Below are positions 2,894-26,792 of a stretch of 44,415 nucleotides of DNA, in pieces; positions within the stretch are counted from its first letter, which is position 1; every line of letters begins with the position of its first letter. A program made the position numbers and the translations under genes. The notes beneath the pieces were generated by a model that did not search any database, was not told the DNA's origin, and was given only the letters and a program-made list of their open reading frames with translations. The stretch is from Comamonadaceae bacterium (lineage in GTDB: Bacteria; Pseudomonadota; Gammaproteobacteria; Burkholderiales; Burkholderiaceae_C), in NCBI GenBank assembly GCA_023259355.1, contig JAHFQI010000001.1, positions 26,333 to 70,747 of the forward strand, read 5' to 3'.

Positions 2894-4423
2894 CTATTCA
2901 GGCTGTGGCGTGGGCCGCAAGCCAATGTGCCGATGGATCGAATGCCCCGTCGCATCCACGGCCACGGTCACCGGAAACTCCTGGAGTTCAAACTCGTGAA
3001 TCGCTTCCATGCCCAGGTCGTCAAAAGCCAGCACTTTGGCGTGGGTGATGGCTTTGGACAGCAGGTAGGCGGCACCGCCCACGGCCATCAGGTAGGCCGC
3101 GCCATGCTGGCGGATGGCGGCAATGGCGGCCGGGCCCCGTTCGGCCTTGCCAATCATCGCCAACAGCCCGGTCTGGGCCAGCAGCGTGTCCACAAACTTG
3201 TCCATACGGGTGGCGGTGGTCGGGCCGGCCGGGCCCACGGCCTCACCGGGCACGGCATCGACGGGGCCCACATAGTAGATGACGCGGCCTTTGAGATCGA
3301 CCGGCAAAGGCCGCCCCTCGCGCAGCAGGTCCGCCATGCGCTTGTGCGCGGCGTCGCGCCCGGTCAGCACACGGCCGCTGAGCAGCAAGGTCTGCCCGGT
3401 GCGCCAGCTGGCGACCTGGGCGGCGTCCAGCGCATCGAGGTTGACGCGCACCGCCTGTGGCGAATCGAAACGATCGGGTAGGCCGTCCCACACGTCCGGC
3501 GGCGGCAGTGCGAGTTCGGCGGGGCCGCTGCCGTCCAACGTGAAGCGCATGTAGCGGGTGGCAGCGCAGTTGGGCACCAGCGCAATCGGTATCGTGGCGG
3601 CATGGCAGGGCGCGGTCGCCACCTTCACGTCCAGCACGGTGGCCAAACCGCCCAGGCCTTGCGCGCCGATGCCCAGGGCGTTGATGCGCTGGTAAAGATC
3701 CAGACGCAAGGCCTCTTCCGGGCTGGCCGCGCCACGCTGGCGCAGCAGGTCCATGTCGATCGGCGTGAACAGGCTTTGTTTGGCCAGCAGCATCGCCTGC
3801 TCGGGGCTGGCGCCGATGCCGATGCCCAGGATGCCGGGCGGGCACCAGCCGGCCCCCATGCCGGGCAGTTGGTCCAGCACCCAGTCGGCCACGTTGTCGC
3901 TGGGGTTCAGGGTCGCAAAACGCGCTTTCACATCGCCGCCACCGCCTTTGGCCACCACCAGCACTTCGAGCCCATCGCCGTCCGTCAGCTCGACCTGCAC
4001 GGTGCCCGGTGTGTTGTCGCGGGTGTTGCCACGCGCGCCCAGCGGGTCGCGCACCAGGGAGGCACGCAGCGGGTTGGCCGGGTCGGTGTAGGCCTGGTGC
4101 ACGGCTTCGTTGACGAGGGCCTGCAGGCTGCACAGGCGCTGGCCGTCGCGGCGAACCCATTGCAGCGCTGCGCCCAGTCGAACGAACACCTGCACCACAC
4201 CCGTGTCCTGGCACAGGGGCCGCTTGCCGTAATAACTCAGGCGGCTGTTGATCAGCAACTGCGCCATGGCGTCACGGGCCGGCGCATGGGTCTCGGCATC
4301 GTGGGCGCGGCGCAGGGCCTGCACAAAATCAGGCGGGTGGCAGTAGCTGATGAGCTGCAGGGCATCGGCGATGCCCTGCACCAGGTCTTCCTGGGCAATT
4401 TGCCGCACGGCGTCGGCGGGCAT
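2894..4423 (-). CDS. class I (Fe-S) fumarate hydratase
   Basis: RPLCQDTGVVQVFVRLG, GNTRDNTPG, GIGIGASPEQAMLLAK and VGPAGPTTATRMDKF motifs of class I fumarase; start trimmed to MPADAVRQIAQEDL. Confidence 0.92.
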   Translation of the reverse strand: MPADAVRQIAQEDLVQGIADALQLISYCHPPDFVQALRRAHDAETHAPARDAMAQLLINSRLSYYGKRPLCQDTGVVQVFVRLGAALQWVRRDGQRLCSLQALVNEAVHQAYTDPANPLRASLVRDPLGARGNTRDNTPGTVQVELTDGDGLEVLVVAKGGGGDVKARFATLNPSDNVADWVLDQLPGMGAGWCPPGILGIGIGASPEQAMLLAKQSLFTPIDMDLLRQRGAASPEEALRLDLYQRINALGIGAQGLGGLATVLDVKVATAPCHAATIPIALVPNCAATRYMRFTLDGSGPAELALPPPDVWDGLPDRFDSPQAVRVNLDALDAAQVASWRTGQTLLLSGRVLTGRDAAHKRMADLLREGRPLPVDLKGRVIYYVGPVDAVPGEAVGPAGPTTATRMDKFVDTLLAQTGLLAMIGKAERGPAAIAAIRQHGAAYLMAVGGAAYLLSKAITHAKVLAFDDLGMEAIHEFELQEFPVTVAVDATGHSIHRHIGLRPTPQPE

Positions 4424-4427
4424 GGCA

Positions 4428-5432
4428 TCAATCCAGCGACAGATTGGACCGGGCCGCCACGGCGCGCCAGCGCGCGACTTCGGCTTCGGTGTGCCGGGCC
4501 AGCGCCGCACCGGTGTACTGCTCGGGCGGCAGCATCTGGATGGCCTGGGCGGCCATCTTGTCGGTGTAGGCCTTGTCCTTCATGACCTTGAGGTAGGCGG
4601 ACTGGAATTTGTCCAGCGCCACCTTGGGCGTGCCCTTGGGCGCGTAGATGCCGTACCAGGTGGAGGCCTCGAAGCCGGGCATCACGGTTTCATGCAGGGT
4701 CGGCACGTCCTTGAGTTGCGGCAGCCGCACCTTGGAGGTGACAGCCAGCGCGCGCACCTTGCCTTCGCTGATTTGCGGCAGCGCGGTGTTGGTCTGGTCG
4801 AACATGCCATCGACCTGGCCGCCAATCACGTCCACCAGCGCCGGACCCGCGCCCTTGTAAGGCACCATCGTCACCTTGATGCCGGCCGAGCTGGCCACCA
4901 GCGCGGCAATCAGGTGCGAGCTGGAGCCCATGCCGGCGTTGCTGATGAACAACTTGTCCGGGTTCTTCTTGCCGAAGTCGATCAGGCCCGCGATGTCCTT
5001 GGCCGGATGGGCGTTGCGCACCATCAGCACCAGCGGCGTGTCGGGGAAGCGGAACACCGCGTCGAAGTCTTTCACCGGGTCGTAGGCCAGCTTCTTGTAC
5101 AGGGCCGGCGCCGCGCCCATGTAGCCCATGTGGCCCACGAGCAGGGTGTAGCCGTCGGCCTTCGCACGCGCCACCTTGGCCGCGCCCACGGTGCCGCCGG
5201 CGCCGGGCGAGTTGTCGATGATGATGGGTTGGCCCATCTCGCGCGCCACGCGCTCGGCGATGTGGCGCGCCAGCGCGTCGGTGGGGCCGCCAGCCGCGAA
5301 CGGCACGACCCAGGTGATGGGTTTGCTGGGGTAGGCGTCCTGCGCCAGGGTGCCGGTGGCGCTGAAGCCGGCGAGCAGGGCCAGGCTGGAAGCCAGCAGG
5401 TTGCGGCGAATGCGGGAAGAAATAGCGGACAT
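4428..5432 (-). CDS. Bug-family tripartite tricarboxylate transporter (TTT) substrate-binding protein
   Basis: Signal peptide MSAISSRIRRNLLASSLALLAGFSATGTLAQ followed by YPSKPITWVVPFAAGGPTDALARHIAE, the Bug signature. Confidence 0.93.
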   Translation of the reverse strand: MSAISSRIRRNLLASSLALLAGFSATGTLAQDAYPSKPITWVVPFAAGGPTDALARHIAERVAREMGQPIIIDNSPGAGGTVGAAKVARAKADGYTLLVGHMGYMGAAPALYKKLAYDPVKDFDAVFRFPDTPLVLMVRNAHPAKDIAGLIDFGKKNPDKLFISNAGMGSSSHLIAALVASSAGIKVTMVPYKGAGPALVDVIGGQVDGMFDQTNTALPQISEGKVRALAVTSKVRLPQLKDVPTLHETVMPGFEASTWYGIYAPKGTPKVALDKFQSAYLKVMKDKAYTDKMAAQAIQMLPPEQYTGAALARHTEAEVARWRAVAARSNLSLD

Positions 5433-5500
5433 GGGGTGTCTCCTCAAAGGAATGATGTCAGGGAAAGGATGGGATCGGCCAGAAAAGCGGATTGCCGGGT

Positions 5501-6847
5501 TCAATGGCGCGGGGCCGCCAGCGCCTTGTCCACCATCTGCGGTGCGCAGCCGAGGTAGTTGCCGGGCTCGCACAAGGCGTCGATCTGCGCCAGGCTGACG
5601 AGCTTCGTCACCGCCGGGTCGGCCTTGAGCACCTCGGCCAGCGTGCGTTTGTGTTCGAGGGCGGTGCGGCAGGCGGCGTAGACCACGTCGTGCGCCTCGT
5701 TGCGGCCCAGCGCCGGGGCCAGGCCCATCATCACGGCCTCGGCCACGATCAGGCCGCCGGTGGAATCCAGGTTCTGGCGCATGCGCTGCGGGTCCACCTC
5801 CAGGCCGGTCAGCATGAACAGCGCCTGCGACACCGCGCCCGCCGTGTGCAGGAAGGCTTCTGGAATCGCCACCCACTCGGCCTGCCAGGGGCCGGTGGCG
5901 CGCTCGAAGTCCTGCACCGCGCCGTCCAGCGCCAGGCCAGCCAGGTGGCGCACGGTCTTGGCGGCGCCGATCATGACCTCACAGCTGATCGGATTGCGCT
6001 TTTGCGGCATGGTGCTGGAGGCGCCGCGGCCCTGGACGAAGGGCTCGAACACCTCGCTGAACTCGTTGGCCATCATCAGCGACACGTCCAGCCCCATCTT
6101 GGCGAGCGCGGCCGTCACCAGGCCCAGCCACTGCGCGGTTTCGGCCAGGCCGTCGCGGGCGGTGTGCCAGGTGGTCAGCGGCACACCCAGCTTGAGTTCT
6201 TCCATCATCGCGACCTGCACGTCCAGGCCCCGGTCGCCCAGCGAGGCCAGCGTGCCGCCGGCGCCAGCGAACTGGCCCACCAGCACACGCGGGCGCAGCT
6301 GCTGCAGGCGTTCGAGGTTGCGCTCGACCATGCCGAGCCAGATGGCGGTTTTCAGGCCGAAAGTCACGGGCAGCGCGTGCTGCAAGTGCGTGCGGCCGGC
6401 CATGGGGGTGTCGCGGTAGGTGGCGCTCAGGCGGCGCAGTTGAACCGCCACGCCACGCAGGTCGGCTTCCAGCAGGTCCAGGCCGGCGCGGATCTGCAGC
6501 ACCAGCGCGGTGTCCATGATGTCCTGCGTGGTGGCGCCCCAATGCAGGTATTTGCCGGCATCGCCCAGGCCTTCAGCCAGCTGGTGCACCAGCGGCAGGA
6601 TGGGGTAGCCCACGTTGTGCGTCTCGCGCTCCAGGCGATCCATGTCGAGTGCAATGCCCGGCGCCTGCGCCGCAATAACTTGCGCGGCCTCCTGCGGGAT
6701 CAGGCCCAGCTTGCCTTCGGCCAGCGCCAGGGCCACTTCGGTCTCGGTGTAGCGCGCCAGCGTGGCCGTGTCGGAAAACACGGTGCGCATGGCATCGGTG
6801 GAAAACAGGCTTCCGAGGAAGCGGGAGTCAATCAGGGTGGCGTGCAT
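5501..6847 (-). CDS. aspartase/ASL-superfamily lyase (annotatable as 3-carboxy-cis,cis-muconate cycloisomerase-like)
   Basis: 448 aa; RGASSTMPQKRNPISCEVMIGAAK matches the SSxMPxKxNP superfamily signature; HWGATTQDIMDTA and GRTHLQHALPVTFG motifs. Confidence 0.88.
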   Translation of the reverse strand: MHATLIDSRFLGSLFSTDAMRTVFSDTATLARYTETEVALALAEGKLGLIPQEAAQVIAAQAPGIALDMDRLERETHNVGYPILPLVHQLAEGLGDAGKYLHWGATTQDIMDTALVLQIRAGLDLLEADLRGVAVQLRRLSATYRDTPMAGRTHLQHALPVTFGLKTAIWLGMVERNLERLQQLRPRVLVGQFAGAGGTLASLGDRGLDVQVAMMEELKLGVPLTTWHTARDGLAETAQWLGLVTAALAKMGLDVSLMMANEFSEVFEPFVQGRGASSTMPQKRNPISCEVMIGAAKTVRHLAGLALDGAVQDFERATGPWQAEWVAIPEAFLHTAGAVSQALFMLTGLEVDPQRMRQNLDSTGGLIVAEAVMMGLAPALGRNEAHDVVYAACRTALEHKRTLAEVLKADPAVTKLVSLAQIDALCEPGNYLGCAPQMVDKALAAPRH

Positions 6848-6863
6848 GGTGAGGCGATCTCCT

Positions 6864-6896
6864 ATATGTTCGTACTTATTATATGTACGAACATAT
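6864..6896. promoter_or_regulatory. Double GntR-type operator overlapping divergent -10 elements
   Basis: ATATGTTCGTAC (6864-6875) and GTACGAACATAT (6885-6896) are perfect inverted repeats with a 9-nt spacer. Each arm sits in a near-palindrome (ATGTTCGTACtt, ATGTACGAACAT). The spacer holds TATAAT on the minus strand (6883-6878) and TATTAT on the plus strand (6877-6882). Confidence 0.75.
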
Positions 6897-6932
6897 TTGA
6901 ATGCAAGCAGCAATTCGTTACACTCTCACGTC

Positions 6933-7661
6933 ATGGCCACCCAACCGCTTTACGCCCGCATTGCCGACCAGCTGGCGCAGGACATCGCCAGCGGCCGCCA
7001 TGCCGTGGGCGCCACGCTGCCGACCGAGCTGGAACTGGCCGCGCAGCTGCAGGTGAGCCGCGCCACCGTGCGTGCGGCACTGGCCAGCCTGGAAGCGCGC
7101 AAGCTGGTGTCGCGCCGCAAGAACGCCGGCACGCGGGTGGAAGCGGCCTCGCCGCGCGGCGGCTACGGCGCGGCCCTGGCTTCGCTGTCGGACCTGCTGC
7201 AGTGGGCGCAGGCCTGCCAGCGCGCGGTGCAGCGCACGGATGACGTGGTGCTGGATCAAAACCTGGCGCGCGAACTGGGCTGCGAGCCCGGCAGCCGCTG
7301 GCTGCGCGTGCAAAGCCTGCGCTTTGACGCCGACAAGGGCCAGGGGCCCGTGGCCTGGACCGACGCCTACATCGACGCGCGCTACGCCGCCATCCTGCCG
7401 GCCGTGCTGAGCCAGCCCACGGTGCTGATGTCGCAACTGCTGGAGCAGCAATTCGGCCTGGACCTGGCCACGGTGGACCAGGAAATTTCCGGCGGCAAGC
7501 TCGACCCGGTGACCGCCCAGGCCCTGAAGGCCGAACCCGACGGCGCCGCGCTGAAGGTGGTGCGCCGCTACCTCACGGGCAGCGGCCAGCCGGCACTGGT
7601 GACGGTATCCACCCACCCGGCCGAGCGCTTTTCGATCCGGACCACGCTGAACCGCAGTTGA
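6933..7661 (+). CDS. GntR-family (HutC/UTRA-type) transcriptional regulator
   Basis: MATQPLYARIADQLAQDIASGRHAVGATLPTELELAAQLQVSRATVRAALASLE winged HTH plus a UTRA-like C-terminal domain. Confidence 0.92.
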   Translation: MATQPLYARIADQLAQDIASGRHAVGATLPTELELAAQLQVSRATVRAALASLEARKLVSRRKNAGTRVEAASPRGGYGAALASLSDLLQWAQACQRAVQRTDDVVLDQNLARELGCEPGSRWLRVQSLRFDADKGQGPVAWTDAYIDARYAAILPAVLSQPTVLMSQLLEQQFGLDLATVDQEISGGKLDPVTAQALKAEPDGAALKVVRRYLTGSGQPALVTVSTHPAERFSIRTTLNRS

Positions 7662-7807: not shown

Positions 7808-8782
7808 TCAGCTGACCTGCAGTCTTTTTTCCACTTGAATGCGGCGCCACTTGGCCGGCGGCACGCCATATTCACGGCTAAAGGCGCGGCTGAAGGCCGT
7901 GTCGGTCTGGTAGCCCACTTCCTCGGCGATCCTGATCAGCGGCAACTGGCTGCCCGACAGCAGGTTGGCCGCCAGAAGCATGCGCCATTGCGTCAGATAC
8001 TGCATTGGCGCCATCCCGACAATCAGCTGGAATTTCTCGGCGAGCACGGACCGGGACGTCCCGGCCTCACTGGCCAGATCCTCCAGCGTCCAGGCGCGTG
8101 TGGGGTTCTTGTGCAGCGCGCCCAAGGCCGCCCCCACAATGCGGTCCCCGACACCCGCCAGCCAGCCTGTGGTGCCCGGCGTCTGCTCGTTCATGTAGAT
8201 GCGCAGCACCTCGATAAAGAGAACCTCGGCCAATTTGGCCAGCACGCCCATGCCGCCCGGACGCGGCGACCGGGCCTCGCTCAGCGCATAACGCAAGGAC
8301 GCCTCCAGCCAGGCGCCCGCGCTGGAGCCGCGAACACTGACTTTGACGACAGCAGGCAGGCCCGCCAGCAGCATGCGGGCCAGGCGCGCATCGCAAGCCA
8401 GATAGCCACACACCAGGCGTGTCACCGCGCCGCCGCCCCCATAGGCCAACTGACGCGGGCGCCTTGACAGCACGACGTCCAGTTTCGCCCCTGTGGCGGC
8501 GGGAACGCCCGGGGCCGAGGTCATGCGGTGGGCATCGCCCTGTGGAAAGATCACCGCGTCCCCGGCAATGAGGTGCACGGGCGGCTGCCCAGCCATCTCC
8601 ACGTAGCACTCTCCCTCGGTAATCATGTGAAAGATCACCACGCGTTCGGCCCCGGGCTCCAGCAAAGGCGCCGCATAGTCCGCGTGGGGAGACTGGTAGC
8701 ACCACGGTGCCGTGAACCGGCCGTTGATGAAGATGGCCCCGATCAGGCGCACCACCCGCAGGGTTTCCGACAGGGCGTCCAT
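7808..8782 (-). CDS. AraC-family transcriptional regulator with N-terminal cupin domain
   Basis: C-terminal AraC HTH (WTLEDLASEAGTSRSVLAEKFQLIVGMAPMQYLTQWRMLLA...TDTAFSRAFSREYGVPPAKWR); cupin-like N-terminus. Confidence 0.93.
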   Translation of the reverse strand: MDALSETLRVVRLIGAIFINGRFTAPWCYQSPHADYAAPLLEPGAERVVIFHMITEGECYVEMAGQPPVHLIAGDAVIFPQGDAHRMTSAPGVPAATGAKLDVVLSRRPRQLAYGGGGAVTRLVCGYLACDARLARMLLAGLPAVVKVSVRGSSAGAWLEASLRYALSEARSPRPGGMGVLAKLAEVLFIEVLRIYMNEQTPGTTGWLAGVGDRIVGAALGALHKNPTRAWTLEDLASEAGTSRSVLAEKFQLIVGMAPMQYLTQWRMLLAANLLSGSQLPLIRIAEEVGYQTDTAFSRAFSREYGVPPAKWRRIQVEKRLQVS

Positions 8783-11119: not shown

Positions 11120-12358
11120 TCAGAGCGGCTGGCTGGGGTCCGATGCCGGACCGGCCACCACGGCGGCATCGTGCAGGCGGCCGATGGCGCCGCTGTCCAG
11201 GCCCAGCACCTCGTGCAACACCTCGTCGGTGTGGGTGCCCAGCAGCGGCGCCGGGGCCGTCGCCTCGCGCGGCTGCCCGCCCACGCGCACGGCGGACCCG
11301 GCCACCAAGTGCGGCCCCACGCCCGGGCTGTCGCCGGGCTCGAACACCGGGTTCGCCAGGCTGGCGCGCGCGTCGTGGGCCAGCAACTCGCGCACGGTGC
11401 GGTAGGTGCCCCAGCAGGCCTTGTGGGCATCCAGCGCCTGCGCGACTTCGGTCAGCGGGCGGGCCGCGAACCACGGTGCCAGCAGCGCGGCAATCGCGTC
11501 GCGCCCCTCGTAACGCCCGGTTTCGTCCTCAAAACGGCGTCCCTGTCGGCGGGCCAGTTCGGCCAGCGGGGCCTCGAGCCCGGTCGCGCGGACCAGCGCG
11601 GTCCACTGTCCGGCGCTGACCGCGGCCATCATGACGCGCTGGCCGTCGGCCGTGGCAAAGTCGTGACCGAAGGCACCGTAGATGTGGTTGCCGATCGAGG
11701 GCCGGTCCTGCCCCAGCAGCTCGGCCTCGGCCATCACGCCCAGGTGCGACAACGTGGTGAAGGCCATGTCCGACAGCGCCAGCTTCAGGTCCGTACCCTG
11801 GCCGGTGCGCTGCCGGTGGTTCACCGCGGCCAGCACGGCAAAGGCCGCCTGGTAGGCGCAGGCGATGTCCCAGGCGGGCAGCACCTGGTTCACGGGCGTT
11901 TGCGGCGTGGCCCCGCCGGTGACGGCCGGGTAGCCGGTGGCGCAATGCACGGTGTAGTCCACGGCCGTGGAACCATCGCCATTGCCCTGGATGGTGCAGC
12001 TGATCACGTCGGGGCGCAGTTGCGCGAGCGACGCGTGGGCCAGCCACGGCGTGCCGATGTTGGTCAGCAACACACCGGCGTCCGGCCCCGGGGCCGTGAC
12101 CAGGGCGCGGACCAGCTCGCGCCCTTCGGGCTTGCGGATGTCGATGGCAATCGAGCGCTTGCCCTTGTTCAGGCCGGTCCAGTAGAGGCTGCGGCCCGAG
12201 GGCATGAGCGGCAGTCGCCCGTAGTCGATGCCGCCGCCGATCAGGTCCACCCGGATCACGTCGGCGCCGAACTGCGCCAGCGTGAGGCCGGCCAGCGGCG
12301 CGGCGATGAAGGCTGAGCTTTCGATCACACGCAGGGGTTTGAGCAGGGAATGGGTCAT
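11120..12358 (-). CDS. CaiB/BaiF family CoA-transferase
   Basis: MTHSLLKPLRVIESSAFIAAPLAGLTLAQFGADVIRVDLIGGGIDYGR..., typical class III CoA-transferase. Confidence 0.93.
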   Translation of the reverse strand: MTHSLLKPLRVIESSAFIAAPLAGLTLAQFGADVIRVDLIGGGIDYGRLPLMPSGRSLYWTGLNKGKRSIAIDIRKPEGRELVRALVTAPGPDAGVLLTNIGTPWLAHASLAQLRPDVISCTIQGNGDGSTAVDYTVHCATGYPAVTGGATPQTPVNQVLPAWDIACAYQAAFAVLAAVNHRQRTGQGTDLKLALSDMAFTTLSHLGVMAEAELLGQDRPSIGNHIYGAFGHDFATADGQRVMMAAVSAGQWTALVRATGLEAPLAELARRQGRRFEDETGRYEGRDAIAALLAPWFAARPLTEVAQALDAHKACWGTYRTVRELLAHDARASLANPVFEPGDSPGVGPHLVAGSAVRVGGQPREATAPAPLLGTHTDEVLHEVLGLDSGAIGRLHDAAVVAGPASDPSQPL

Positions 12359-12371
12359 GAAAAGAACGCCC

Positions 12372-13568
12372 TCAAGCGCGCTCGAACACCGCCGCGATGC
12401 CCTGCCCGCCGCCGATGCACATGGTTTCCAGCCCATAGCGCGCGCCGCGGCGTTGCATTTCGTGCAAGAGCGAGGTCATGATGCGCACGCCGGTGGCGCC
12501 CACCGGGTGGCCCAGCGAGATGCCGGAGCCATTGACGTTGAGCCGCTCGGGGTCGTTCCAGCCCCAGCCGCTGGCCACGGCCAAAGCCTGGCAGGCAAAA
12601 GCCTCGTTGAGTTCGACCAGCCCCATGTCGTCAAAGGAAAGTCCGTTTCTCTGAAACAGCTTCTGCACGGCAGGCACCGGGCCAATGCCCATGTGCGAGG
12701 GTTCGCAGCCCGCTGCGGCCCAGCTGTGCAGGTAGCCGATGGGTGTCAGGCCGAGTTCTTCAAGCTTGTCCTCCGCCACGATCAGGCAGGCGGCCGCCGC
12801 GTCGTTTTGCTGGCAGGCGTTGCCTGCGGTGACGGTGCCGCCCGGCACCAGCGGTTTCAATTTTGTGAGCTGCTCCAGCGTGAGGTCGGCGCGGATGCCT
12901 TCATCACCCGCGACAACCAGCGCTTCGCCTTTGCGCTGCGGCACATGCACCGGAACCACCTCGTCGGCGAACTTGCCCGAAGCCCAGGCGGCGGCGGCGC
13001 GCTGGTGGCTGCGCAGCGCGAAGGCGTCGGCGTCCTCGCGGGAAATGCCGTAGTCGCGCGCCAGGTTTTCGGCGGTCTCGATCATGCCGGAGATGCGCCC
13101 GAAGCGGGACTCGGGCTGCGAGCGCTCGCGCCCGCGCTCCAGCCGGTCATGAAACTTGACGGTGCCCGCACGTTTGCCCCAGCGCATGTCGGTCGTGTAG
13201 TACTCGACGTTGCTCATGCTCTCGACCCCGCCGGCCATCACCACGTCGGCGGCACCGGTCTGCACCATCATGGCGGCGGTGGCAATGGCCTGCAGGCCGC
13301 TGCCGCAGCGGCGGTCCAGCTGCATGCCCGCCACCTGCACCGGAAACCCGGCCTGCAAGGCGACCCAGCGACCGGTGCAGGGGACTTCGCCATTGGCATA
13401 AGAGTGACCGAAGACAACGTCCTCGATCCGTGCCGGGTCCAGACCGGTGCGCTCCACAATGGCCCGCGCCACGATGGCGCCCAGCTCTTCAACCGCAATG
13501 CTGCGCAGGCTGCCCCCAAAGGCGCCAATCGGCGTGCGCAGGGGGGAGACGATAGCGGCTCGTTTCAT
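12372..13568 (-). CDS. acetyl-CoA acetyltransferase / thiolase
   Basis: LDRRCGSGLQAI active-site Cys; NVNGSGISLGHPVGATG; CIGGGQGIA. Confidence 0.95.
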   Translation of the reverse strand: MKRAAIVSPLRTPIGAFGGSLRSIAVEELGAIVARAIVERTGLDPARIEDVVFGHSYANGEVPCTGRWVALQAGFPVQVAGMQLDRRCGSGLQAIATAAMMVQTGAADVVMAGGVESMSNVEYYTTDMRWGKRAGTVKFHDRLERGRERSQPESRFGRISGMIETAENLARDYGISREDADAFALRSHQRAAAAWASGKFADEVVPVHVPQRKGEALVVAGDEGIRADLTLEQLTKLKPLVPGGTVTAGNACQQNDAAAACLIVAEDKLEELGLTPIGYLHSWAAAGCEPSHMGIGPVPAVQKLFQRNGLSFDDMGLVELNEAFACQALAVASGWGWNDPERLNVNGSGISLGHPVGATGVRIMTSLLHEMQRRGARYGLETMCIGGGQGIAAVFERA

Positions 13569-13578
13569 GGTGATTTCC

Positions 13579-14388
13579 TTATTGGTTCAGATTGGCGGAA
13601 GCGGCAAAACGGGGGGTGTCCTTGGAGAGAAAGGCGCGCACACCTTCCTGCGCGTCGGCCGAACTGAACACGCGGTCCGACAGCGGCAGGGCCAGGCGCA
13701 TGGCCTCGTCTTCGGTGGTGTCAAAACTCAGGTCAATCGCCTGTTTGCACAAGGCCAGGGCCAGCGGTGCACGCTGCGCCAACGTGGCGGCCAGTGCCTG
13801 TGCGGCGGCCAGCGCCTCACCCGCCGGCACGACGCGGTTGACCAGGCCCCAGGCCAGCGCCGTGGCAGCGTCGATCGGTTCGCCCAGGAACATCAGCTCC
13901 TTGGCTCGGCCCTCGCCGATGCGCCGCGTCACGCGCACCGGGCCGCCACTGCCGGGGAACACACCCAGCTTGATCTCGGGCAGCGCAAAACGCGCGGTGG
14001 CGTCGGCCACCAGCAGGTCGCAGCACACGGCAATTTCCAGCCCGCCACCAAACGCCAGCCCATTGATGGCCGCCACCGTCGGTTTGGGAAAGTCGTCGAG
14101 CCGGCCAAACACTTCGTGCTGCAGCGCCAGCTTGGCCGGAACAATCCGGCCCGGGACCATGAGAGGCTGGAACTCCGCGATGTCGGAGCCCGCGCAAAAC
14201 GCCCGCGTGCCGGCGCCGGTGACCACCACGGCCCGCACAGCGTCATCGGCGGCCAGCACATCGAGCACCTGGCCCAAAGCCACGGTCAGGCCACGGAACA
14301 CCACGTTGAGCGGCGGGTTGTCGAGCGTGAGGGTGGCCACCCCGCCGCTGACGCTGCAGCGCACCGGCCCGTCGTTGATCTCAACCAT
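13579..14388 (-). CDS. enoyl-CoA hydratase/isomerase family protein
   Basis: GTRAFCAGSDIAEF, AAINGLAFGGGLEIAVCCDLLVADATARFALPEIKLGVFPGSGG. Confidence 0.94.
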   Translation of the reverse strand: MVEINDGPVRCSVSGGVATLTLDNPPLNVVFRGLTVALGQVLDVLAADDAVRAVVVTGAGTRAFCAGSDIAEFQPLMVPGRIVPAKLALQHEVFGRLDDFPKPTVAAINGLAFGGGLEIAVCCDLLVADATARFALPEIKLGVFPGSGGPVRVTRRIGEGRAKELMFLGEPIDAATALAWGLVNRVVPAGEALAAAQALAATLAQRAPLALALCKQAIDLSFDTTEDEAMRLALPLSDRVFSSADAQEGVRAFLSKDTPRFAASANLNQ

Positions 14389-20542: not shown

Positions 20543-21493
20543 ATGGAACTGCGACAACTCCGGCAATTTGTGGCCGTGGCCGAGACGCTGAGCTTTCGCC
20601 AGGCGGCCGAACGGCTCTTCATGGCCCAACCCCCGCTGTCGGTGGCGATCCGCAAGCTGGAAGAGGAAATCGGCGTGCCCCTGTTTGAGCGCAGCGCACG
20701 TGGGGTGAGGCTGACCCCTGCCGGAAAGACGGCGCTGGACATGGCCCGGCAGTGCCTGGCGCAGGCGGACCAGTTCCTCGTGGCCACGCGCTCGGCCGCA
20801 ACCGGTGAGACCGGCCATCTGCGTATCGGCTTCATCGGCTCGGTCACCTTCGGCCTGATGCCCGCCCTGATCCAGTCCTTCAGCGCGCGTTACCCGCTGG
20901 TCAAGCTGGATCTGCGCGAATCGACCAACCAGGAGATCCTGGCCCAAGTGGAAACGCAGGAACTGGATCTCGGCTTCGTGCGGGTGCCCACCTCGCGCCC
21001 GGCGCATGTGCAGTTCCAGATGGTGGAAAAAGACGTTTTCTGCGCCGCCCTGCCGCCCGGCCATCCGCTGGCACGCAAGAAGAAGCTGGTGCTGAAGGAT
21101 CTGGAGGACCAGCCCTTCATCGGTTACGCGCCTTCCCGCGTGGGTGGCCTGCATGCGGCCGTCAGCCTGTTGCTGCAACAGGCTGACATTGCACCGCACA
21201 TCACCCAGGAGGCGGTGCAGGTGCAGACCGTTATTGGTCTGGTGGAAAGCGGTCTGGGCGTGGCACTGGTGCCCTCGGTCAACGCACCCTACTCCTCGCG
21301 GCGCGTGGCCTTTCGCCCGATCCGCGATCTGCCAGCCCAGTCGTCCATCGGCATCGCGCTGGCGTTCCACCAGGCGATGGAGACGCCGGTCGCAAAGCGC
21401 TTTCGCGAAGCCGTCGCCGGTTTCAAGGGCCGGGAGCACGAGCCCGCACCGGTGACCGTGTCCGTCGACCTGGCCACGCCGACGCGGGCGTGA
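20543..21493 (+). CDS. LysR-family transcriptional regulator
   Basis: MELRQLRQFVAVAETLSFRQAAERLFMAQPPLSVAIRKLEEEIGVPLFERSARGVRLTPAG. Confidence 0.96.
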   Translation: MELRQLRQFVAVAETLSFRQAAERLFMAQPPLSVAIRKLEEEIGVPLFERSARGVRLTPAGKTALDMARQCLAQADQFLVATRSAATGETGHLRIGFIGSVTFGLMPALIQSFSARYPLVKLDLRESTNQEILAQVETQELDLGFVRVPTSRPAHVQFQMVEKDVFCAALPPGHPLARKKKLVLKDLEDQPFIGYAPSRVGGLHAAVSLLLQQADIAPHITQEAVQVQTVIGLVESGLGVALVPSVNAPYSSRRVAFRPIRDLPAQSSIGIALAFHQAMETPVAKRFREAVAGFKGREHEPAPVTVSVDLATPTRA

Positions 21494-26755: not shown

Positions 26756-26792
26756 AAAGGCCCGGTGCACTTCACCAGTGCACCGGGCCTTT
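26756..26792. terminator. Bidirectional terminator hairpin
   Basis: AAAGGCCCGGTGCAC-TTCACCA-GTGCACCGGGCCTTT: perfect 15-bp stem, 7-nt loop, between convergent ligase (ends 26741) and ABC receptor (ends 26842). Confidence 0.9.

Follow-up and report, generated by a model that had tools for sequence, protein, structure and literature searches.

A predicted dedicated twin operator for a HutC-type GntR regulator in the gap between its gene and a divergent lyase operon of a Comamonadaceae bacterium

Double-site divergons with a constant distance between the sites have been described for the HutC and FadR subfamilies of GntR regulators by Suvorova, Korostelev and Gelfand in 2015, and that study gives HutC operators as mostly GT-N4-AC, links an Arg at HTH position 28 to a G/C in the operator pair correlated with it, and correlates HTH position 39 with the central operator bases (PMC4494728). 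NagR/YvoA and DasR are HutC-type proteins of known structure in which the effector displaces the DNA-binding domains (PMC4333415). Here we analyze a 44,415-nucleotide stretch of DNA from a Comamonadaceae bacterium (assembly GCA_023259355.1), referred to throughout as the window, in which a gene for such a regulator diverges from a lyase gene. In light of the comparisons presented below, we consider it highly likely that the gap between them carries a twin operator dedicated to the GntR protein, which would use it to repress a lyase-tctC-fumarase operon and probably its own gene until released by a carboxylate. The genes concerned are the following:

6933–7661, plus strand: GntR-family regulator, HutC subfamily, 242 aa (Pfam GntR 3.6e-20, UTRA 7.6e-17)
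5501–6847, minus strand: fumarase/aspartase-superfamily lyase, 448 aa (Pfam Lyase_1 and ADSL_C)
4428–5444, minus strand: TctC-type periplasmic receptor of a tripartite tricarboxylate transporter, second gene (Pfam TctC 7.7e-64; coordinates as in the stretch searched)
2894–4423, minus strand: class I fumarase-like hydro-lyase, third gene (Pfam Fumerase and Fumerase_C)

The regulator combines an N-terminal winged helix with a C-terminal UTRA effector domain, the domain pair that defines the HutC type, both above their Pfam cut-offs (GntR 71.8 bits vs. 27; UTRA 61.9 bits vs. 23.8), and is the presumed binder of the two sites described below. The lyase gene is presumed to be the first of the regulated operon. 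The fumarase-like gene likely starts with the ATG at 4423, open in translation, a few bases past the TctC stop, and the closely spaced lyase, tctC and fumarase genes probably form one operon. Elsewhere on the minus strand (11120–14388), genes for a CoA-transferase of family III, a thiolase and an enoyl-CoA hydratase lie in a row and apparently constitute a separate CoA-ester degradation cluster.

The lyase shares its superfamily with PcaB (3-carboxymuconate cycloisomerase), adenylosuccinate lyase, Tad1 (trans-aconitate decarboxylase) and the closest solved structure, 3c8t ('Fumarate lyase'). It scores below the NCBIfam equivalog cut-offs for PcaB (TIGR02426, 329.8 vs. 355.75 bits; NF006554, 486.3 vs. 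595) and below that for PurB (adenylosuccinate lyase). The signature loop SSTMPQKxNP is retained, as SSTMPQKRNP, and a GRTHLQ motif is common to the lyase and 3c8t, whereas Tad1 has RSNLK at the place of RTHLQ; with that motif kept, a role as trans-aconitate decarboxylase was considered and judged unlikely. The gene that follows the lyase encodes a DctA-type dicarboxylate carrier in the three relatives' loci tested (L001, L019, L040); in Variovorax and Rhodoferax it encodes a TctC relative. A small di- or tricarboxylate is therefore the likely substrate.

Direct reading of the lyase/gntR gap gives ATATGTTCGTACTTATTATATGTACGAACATAT for 6864–6896, a stretch that accommodates two putative operators and adjoins a candidate promoter:

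6864–6879, no strand: putative operator O2, ATATGTTCGTACTTAT, on the lyase side (direct reading)
6881–6896, no strand: putative operator O1, ATATGTACGAACATAT, on the gntR side
6864–6896, no strand: predicted twin operator as a whole, with 12-bp mirror arms at 6864–6875 and 6885–6896
6878–6906, minus strand: candidate lyase promoter, TTGCAT (6906–6901), 17 nt, TATAAT (6883–6878) (direct reading)

An initial sequence-only reading had pointed to perfect 12-bp arms around a 9-nt spacer, and these are indeed present (ATATGTTCGTAC and GTACGAACATAT), as are the near-palindromes of the type ATGT-N4-ACAT that it had placed 17 bp apart from centre to centre, the left one imperfect as stated in that it ends in ACTT, not ACAT. 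Extended inward, the repeat reaches 16 bp at 94% complementarity around 1 nt and resolves into two adjacent 16-bp palindromes, the mirror arms arising because the outer half-sites of these palindromes face each other. Each site has the GT-N4-AC core expected of HutC operators at its centre (GTTCGTAC and GTACGAAC), in an unusual version, ACGA/TCGT. Perfect 12-bp arms with a spacer of 0–20 nt were obtained in 1 of 20,000 composition-matched 85-bp sequences; since such arms are found at three further places in the window (4356, 21161 and 26756), symmetry alone is not decisive and a comparison with relatives is needed. The repeats at 21161–21187 and 26756–26792 are strong, perfect and possibly terminators, with arms of at least 13 and at least 16 bp.

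One scan of genome contigs yielded 56 relatives of the regulator, and a scan of the window's own family (401 genomes) added more; in most of them the regulator gene has the same lyase (about 60% identical) as its immediate upstream neighbor, in divergent orientation. We read 67 lyase/gntR gaps, including that of the window, and found two copies of ATATGTYCGRACATAT in the gaps of the 66 other divergons, mostly from Burkholderiales, which are not independent loci, many being from closely related Burkholderiaceae; members of the Comamonadaceae, Oxalobacteraceae, Zoogloeaceae and Azonexaceae have the paired-site arrangement too. The window and these 66 loci thus all combine a transcription factor gene divergent from its presumed target operon with two intergenic sites. 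Across the 67 gaps the GT, CG and AC of the motif are nearly invariant, with degenerate sites in a few Comamonadaceae (L060, L065, L067, L073), and most relatives have a complete palindrome at both sites. O1 agrees with the consensus at 15/16 positions and O2 at 14/16, and the ACTTAT variant of O2 (AAGT on the other strand) recurs in L011, L013, L030 and L040. Conversely, the pair is absent from nearly all relatives and paralogues without a lyase neighbor; L063 does have it, its lyase having been missed by the filter because the match is partial. Two GntR relatives without the lyase neighbor, L080 and L075, show a different, single upstream site, ATATGTTGGTACATAT or ATAGGTTGGTACATAT.

The idea, put forward in that first reading, that the gap holds a double GntR operator is hence borne out at the level of sequence comparison, the pair being conserved together with the gene order, and the loss of the arms among relatives of the same gene order, which would have spoken against it, is not what the 66 other divergons show. 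The 12-bp arms themselves, however, do not survive as the functional unit: in relatives the 16-bp palindromes are two distinct units, at a distance of about 24 bp.

The gaps of the relatives hold several further elements. In L068 (genome G023) the window's two unusual 16-mers, ATATGTACGAACATAT and ATATGTTCGTACTTAT, recur with their order exchanged and at a distance of 24 bp; a simple inversion linking the two arrangements was considered and rejected, as it gives the wrong orientations. Upstream of the operator pair in L062, L064, L071 and L073 lies an extra operator-like stretch with TTGACA (ATATGTTGACAAA..TCGAACATAT), about 17 nt before the TATGTT of the next operator, which is perhaps an operator-embedded gntR promoter. 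Comamonadaceae relatives (L027, L062, L066, L070, L073 and others) also have a small palindrome, GGGTNNACCC (GGGTTTACCC, GGGTTAACCC), between O1 and gntR, which is absent from the window.

The motif is specific for this gene pair. With a matrix built from the relatives only, leaving out the window, O1 scores 24.4 and O2 20.4; third in the 44 kb comes a site at -2.0, and among 2 million random positions neither operator score was attained. In a pattern search of the window's genome, which is 88% complete, no other place matches with up to one mismatch, and exact copies occur in 21 of 27 relative genomes, every one of them located by its coordinates in the lyase/gntR gap. Paired sites were also sought across the order (399 genomes) and the class (369 genomes), and turned up only in the window and in one other genome, where the pair lies between a lyase and a GntR gene whose products are 60% and 44% identical to those of the window. 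Because matches are confined genome-wide to lyase/gntR gaps, the regulator appears to be dedicated to this one divergon.

The distance between the two sites is 24 bp in 46 loci and 23–28 bp in 65 of the 66 loci other than the window (median 24 bp, 5–95% range 24–27.4), independent of intergenic length (r = 0.16, p = 0.21, n = 67; lengths 85–222 bp), as is the case for divergons in which both sites serve in common. At 17 bp the window is an outlier, 7 bp or about two thirds of a helical turn below the usual 24, and this spacing was found in no other divergon sampled, whether among the 66 loci or in the paired-site searches of order and class. The only other compact pair, in L046 (Ensifer sp.), is 18 bp apart and includes one weak site (ATATGTGCATACATAC). 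Dimers would be about 223 degrees apart on the helix at 17 bp, as compared with about 103 degrees at the usual spacing. Judging by the near-constant spacing across the divergons, the dimers may bind co-operatively.

Overlapping divergent promoters had also been proposed for this region, and the hexamers invoked, TATAAT and TTGCAT on the minus strand (17 nt apart) and TATTAT at 6877–6882 on the plus strand, are all present. Of the two promoters, the minus-strand one is plausible but weak: it matches the consensus at 9/12 positions (6/6 in the -10 and 3/6 in the -35 element), and a formal scan of 6780–7000 found no σ70 promoter at its threshold, under which the candidate falls because its -35 element matches at only 3/6. 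In the relatives, -35/-10 hexamers around O1 score 7.46 on average vs. 7.26 in shuffled flanks, a difference that is not significant, and the best placement is most often TTGNNN-N17 at a single fixed offset. The plus-strand TATTAT finds no support as the regulator's promoter, as the hexamers 16–18 bp upstream of it match TTGACA at no more than 2/6 positions and Burkholderiaceae relatives have a conserved TATGAT elsewhere, on the gntR side of O1. The window is without that TATGAT; by eye, TTGAAT-N16-TACACT at 6897–6924 is a candidate gntR promoter.

HTH position 28 corresponds to Leu33 of the window's regulator in our own numbering, and the pair beside GT is T/A; a Leu rather than Arg here fits an A/T pair, going by the published correlations (PMC4494728). 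The window's protein retains Arg43 and the wing residues, which vary in none or almost none of the relatives. Residue 44 (HTH position 39 in the same numbering) is Ala in the window, whereas the other divergon regulators have His (59), Tyr (7) or Ser (1); strict covariation of the altered operator core with this residue is not supported, L068 having the same core together with His44. Residue 57 is Lys, as compared with an invariant Gly in the other divergon relatives. The window's regulator is mostly 38–50% identical to these relatives and sits on a long branch whose place in the tree is unsure.

Together, these observations lead us to infer a switch in which two GntR dimers would sit side by side on O2 and O1, each reading a palindrome of the type TATGT-N-CG-N-ACATA around its GT-N4-AC core. 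Most of O1 falls between the -35 and -10 elements of the candidate lyase promoter, and O2 overlaps the -10/+1 region of that promoter and abuts the lyase ribosome-binding site, so that bound dimers would keep RNA polymerase off the lyase-tctC-fumarase operon. The regulator would probably also limit its own synthesis, since the operators lie 37–69 bp upstream of the gntR start codon, and a small carboxylate of the pathway, bound by the UTRA domain, would release the repressor. Weighing against this reading, the core of the window's sites differs from that of the relatives, the 17-bp spacing falls outside the 23–28 bp range of nearly all other loci, the putative binder is a long-branch protein with Ala44 where others have His, Tyr or Ser, and the position of the lyase promoter is no better in relatives than in shuffled flanks.

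The same data can be read in other ways. The sites might act independently, one for the lyase operon and the other for gntR, with no contact between dimers, as would suit their being complete palindromes in most relatives and as in the independent-site class of HutC divergons described by Suvorova et al. (PMC4494728); in that class, however, the distance grows with intergenic length, whereas here it stays at 24 bp, and both sites of the window lie within 33 bp of one promoter, which makes this arrangement unlikely. We give the same low weight to decay of the pair to one effective site, where O1 would be used and O2, with one half weakened to ACTTAT, would be a remnant left after a loss of about 7 bp. 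The lower score of O2, a spacing without parallel in the sampled divergons and the regulator's long branch would all agree with such decay, yet no place in the window other than O1 comes anywhere near the score of O2, and the ACTTAT variant persists in relatives.

Slightly less probable still is that regulator and operator have co-evolved to a compact binding mode distinct from that of the sampled relatives, such as a tetramer that clamps a single 33-bp palindrome, a thought suggested by the shifted helical phase together with the changed core and residue 44. That the repeat belongs to another regulator, such as the LysR or AraC proteins nearby, or forms an RNA hairpin, we regard as very improbable: further regulators are encoded at 1910–2845 and 7808–8782, but the motif, GT-N4-AC as in HutC operators, goes with the gntR/lyase pair throughout Burkholderiales, and the repeat is AT-rich, lies upstream of both start codons and coincides with nothing in a terminator scan. 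We retain as best reading the dedicated twin operator outlined above.

This reading assigns a conserved, specific operator to Burkholderiales lyase operons for which we found no published regulator: a literature search for the lyase/GntR pair found no paper, one with the operator strings brought up p53 papers for the most part and nothing on GntR regulators, and the part of PMC4494728 consulted holds no mention of this lyase group. A dedicated operator predicts a dedicated inducer and hence offers a route to the lyase's substrate, and the contrast between 17 and 24 bp is a natural experiment on how far helical phase matters for co-operative binding by GntR proteins. Apart from the operator assignment and this contrast, the system is an ordinary repressor switch.

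The kind of switch is thus already known, and the novelty lies in this particular case, with its motif and its compact spacing. The HutC/FadR divergons of Suvorova et al. resemble the window in the divergent transcription factor gene, the two palindromic sites in the gap and the GT-N4-AC core, and resemble the window's group in a near-constant inter-site distance and in a control of both operons that is presumed to be co-operative. NagR/YvoA of Bacillus subtilis and DasR are distant sequence matches to the window's regulator with the same order of winged helix and UTRA domain and likewise read a palindrome as a dimer (PMC4333415), whereas NagR responds to amino-sugar phosphates at an idealized site GTGGTCTAGACCAC and the window combines a core GTNCGNAC with a carboxylate pathway. 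SdhR, a further HutC-type regulator whose site TCTTATGTCTTATATAAGACATAAGA is cited in PMC4494728, shares with the window a compound palindrome, there a single nested one and here two separable 16-bp palindromes. Against its own relatives, the window stands apart in a 17-bp spacing that is shorter than the 23–28 bp of nearly all of them.
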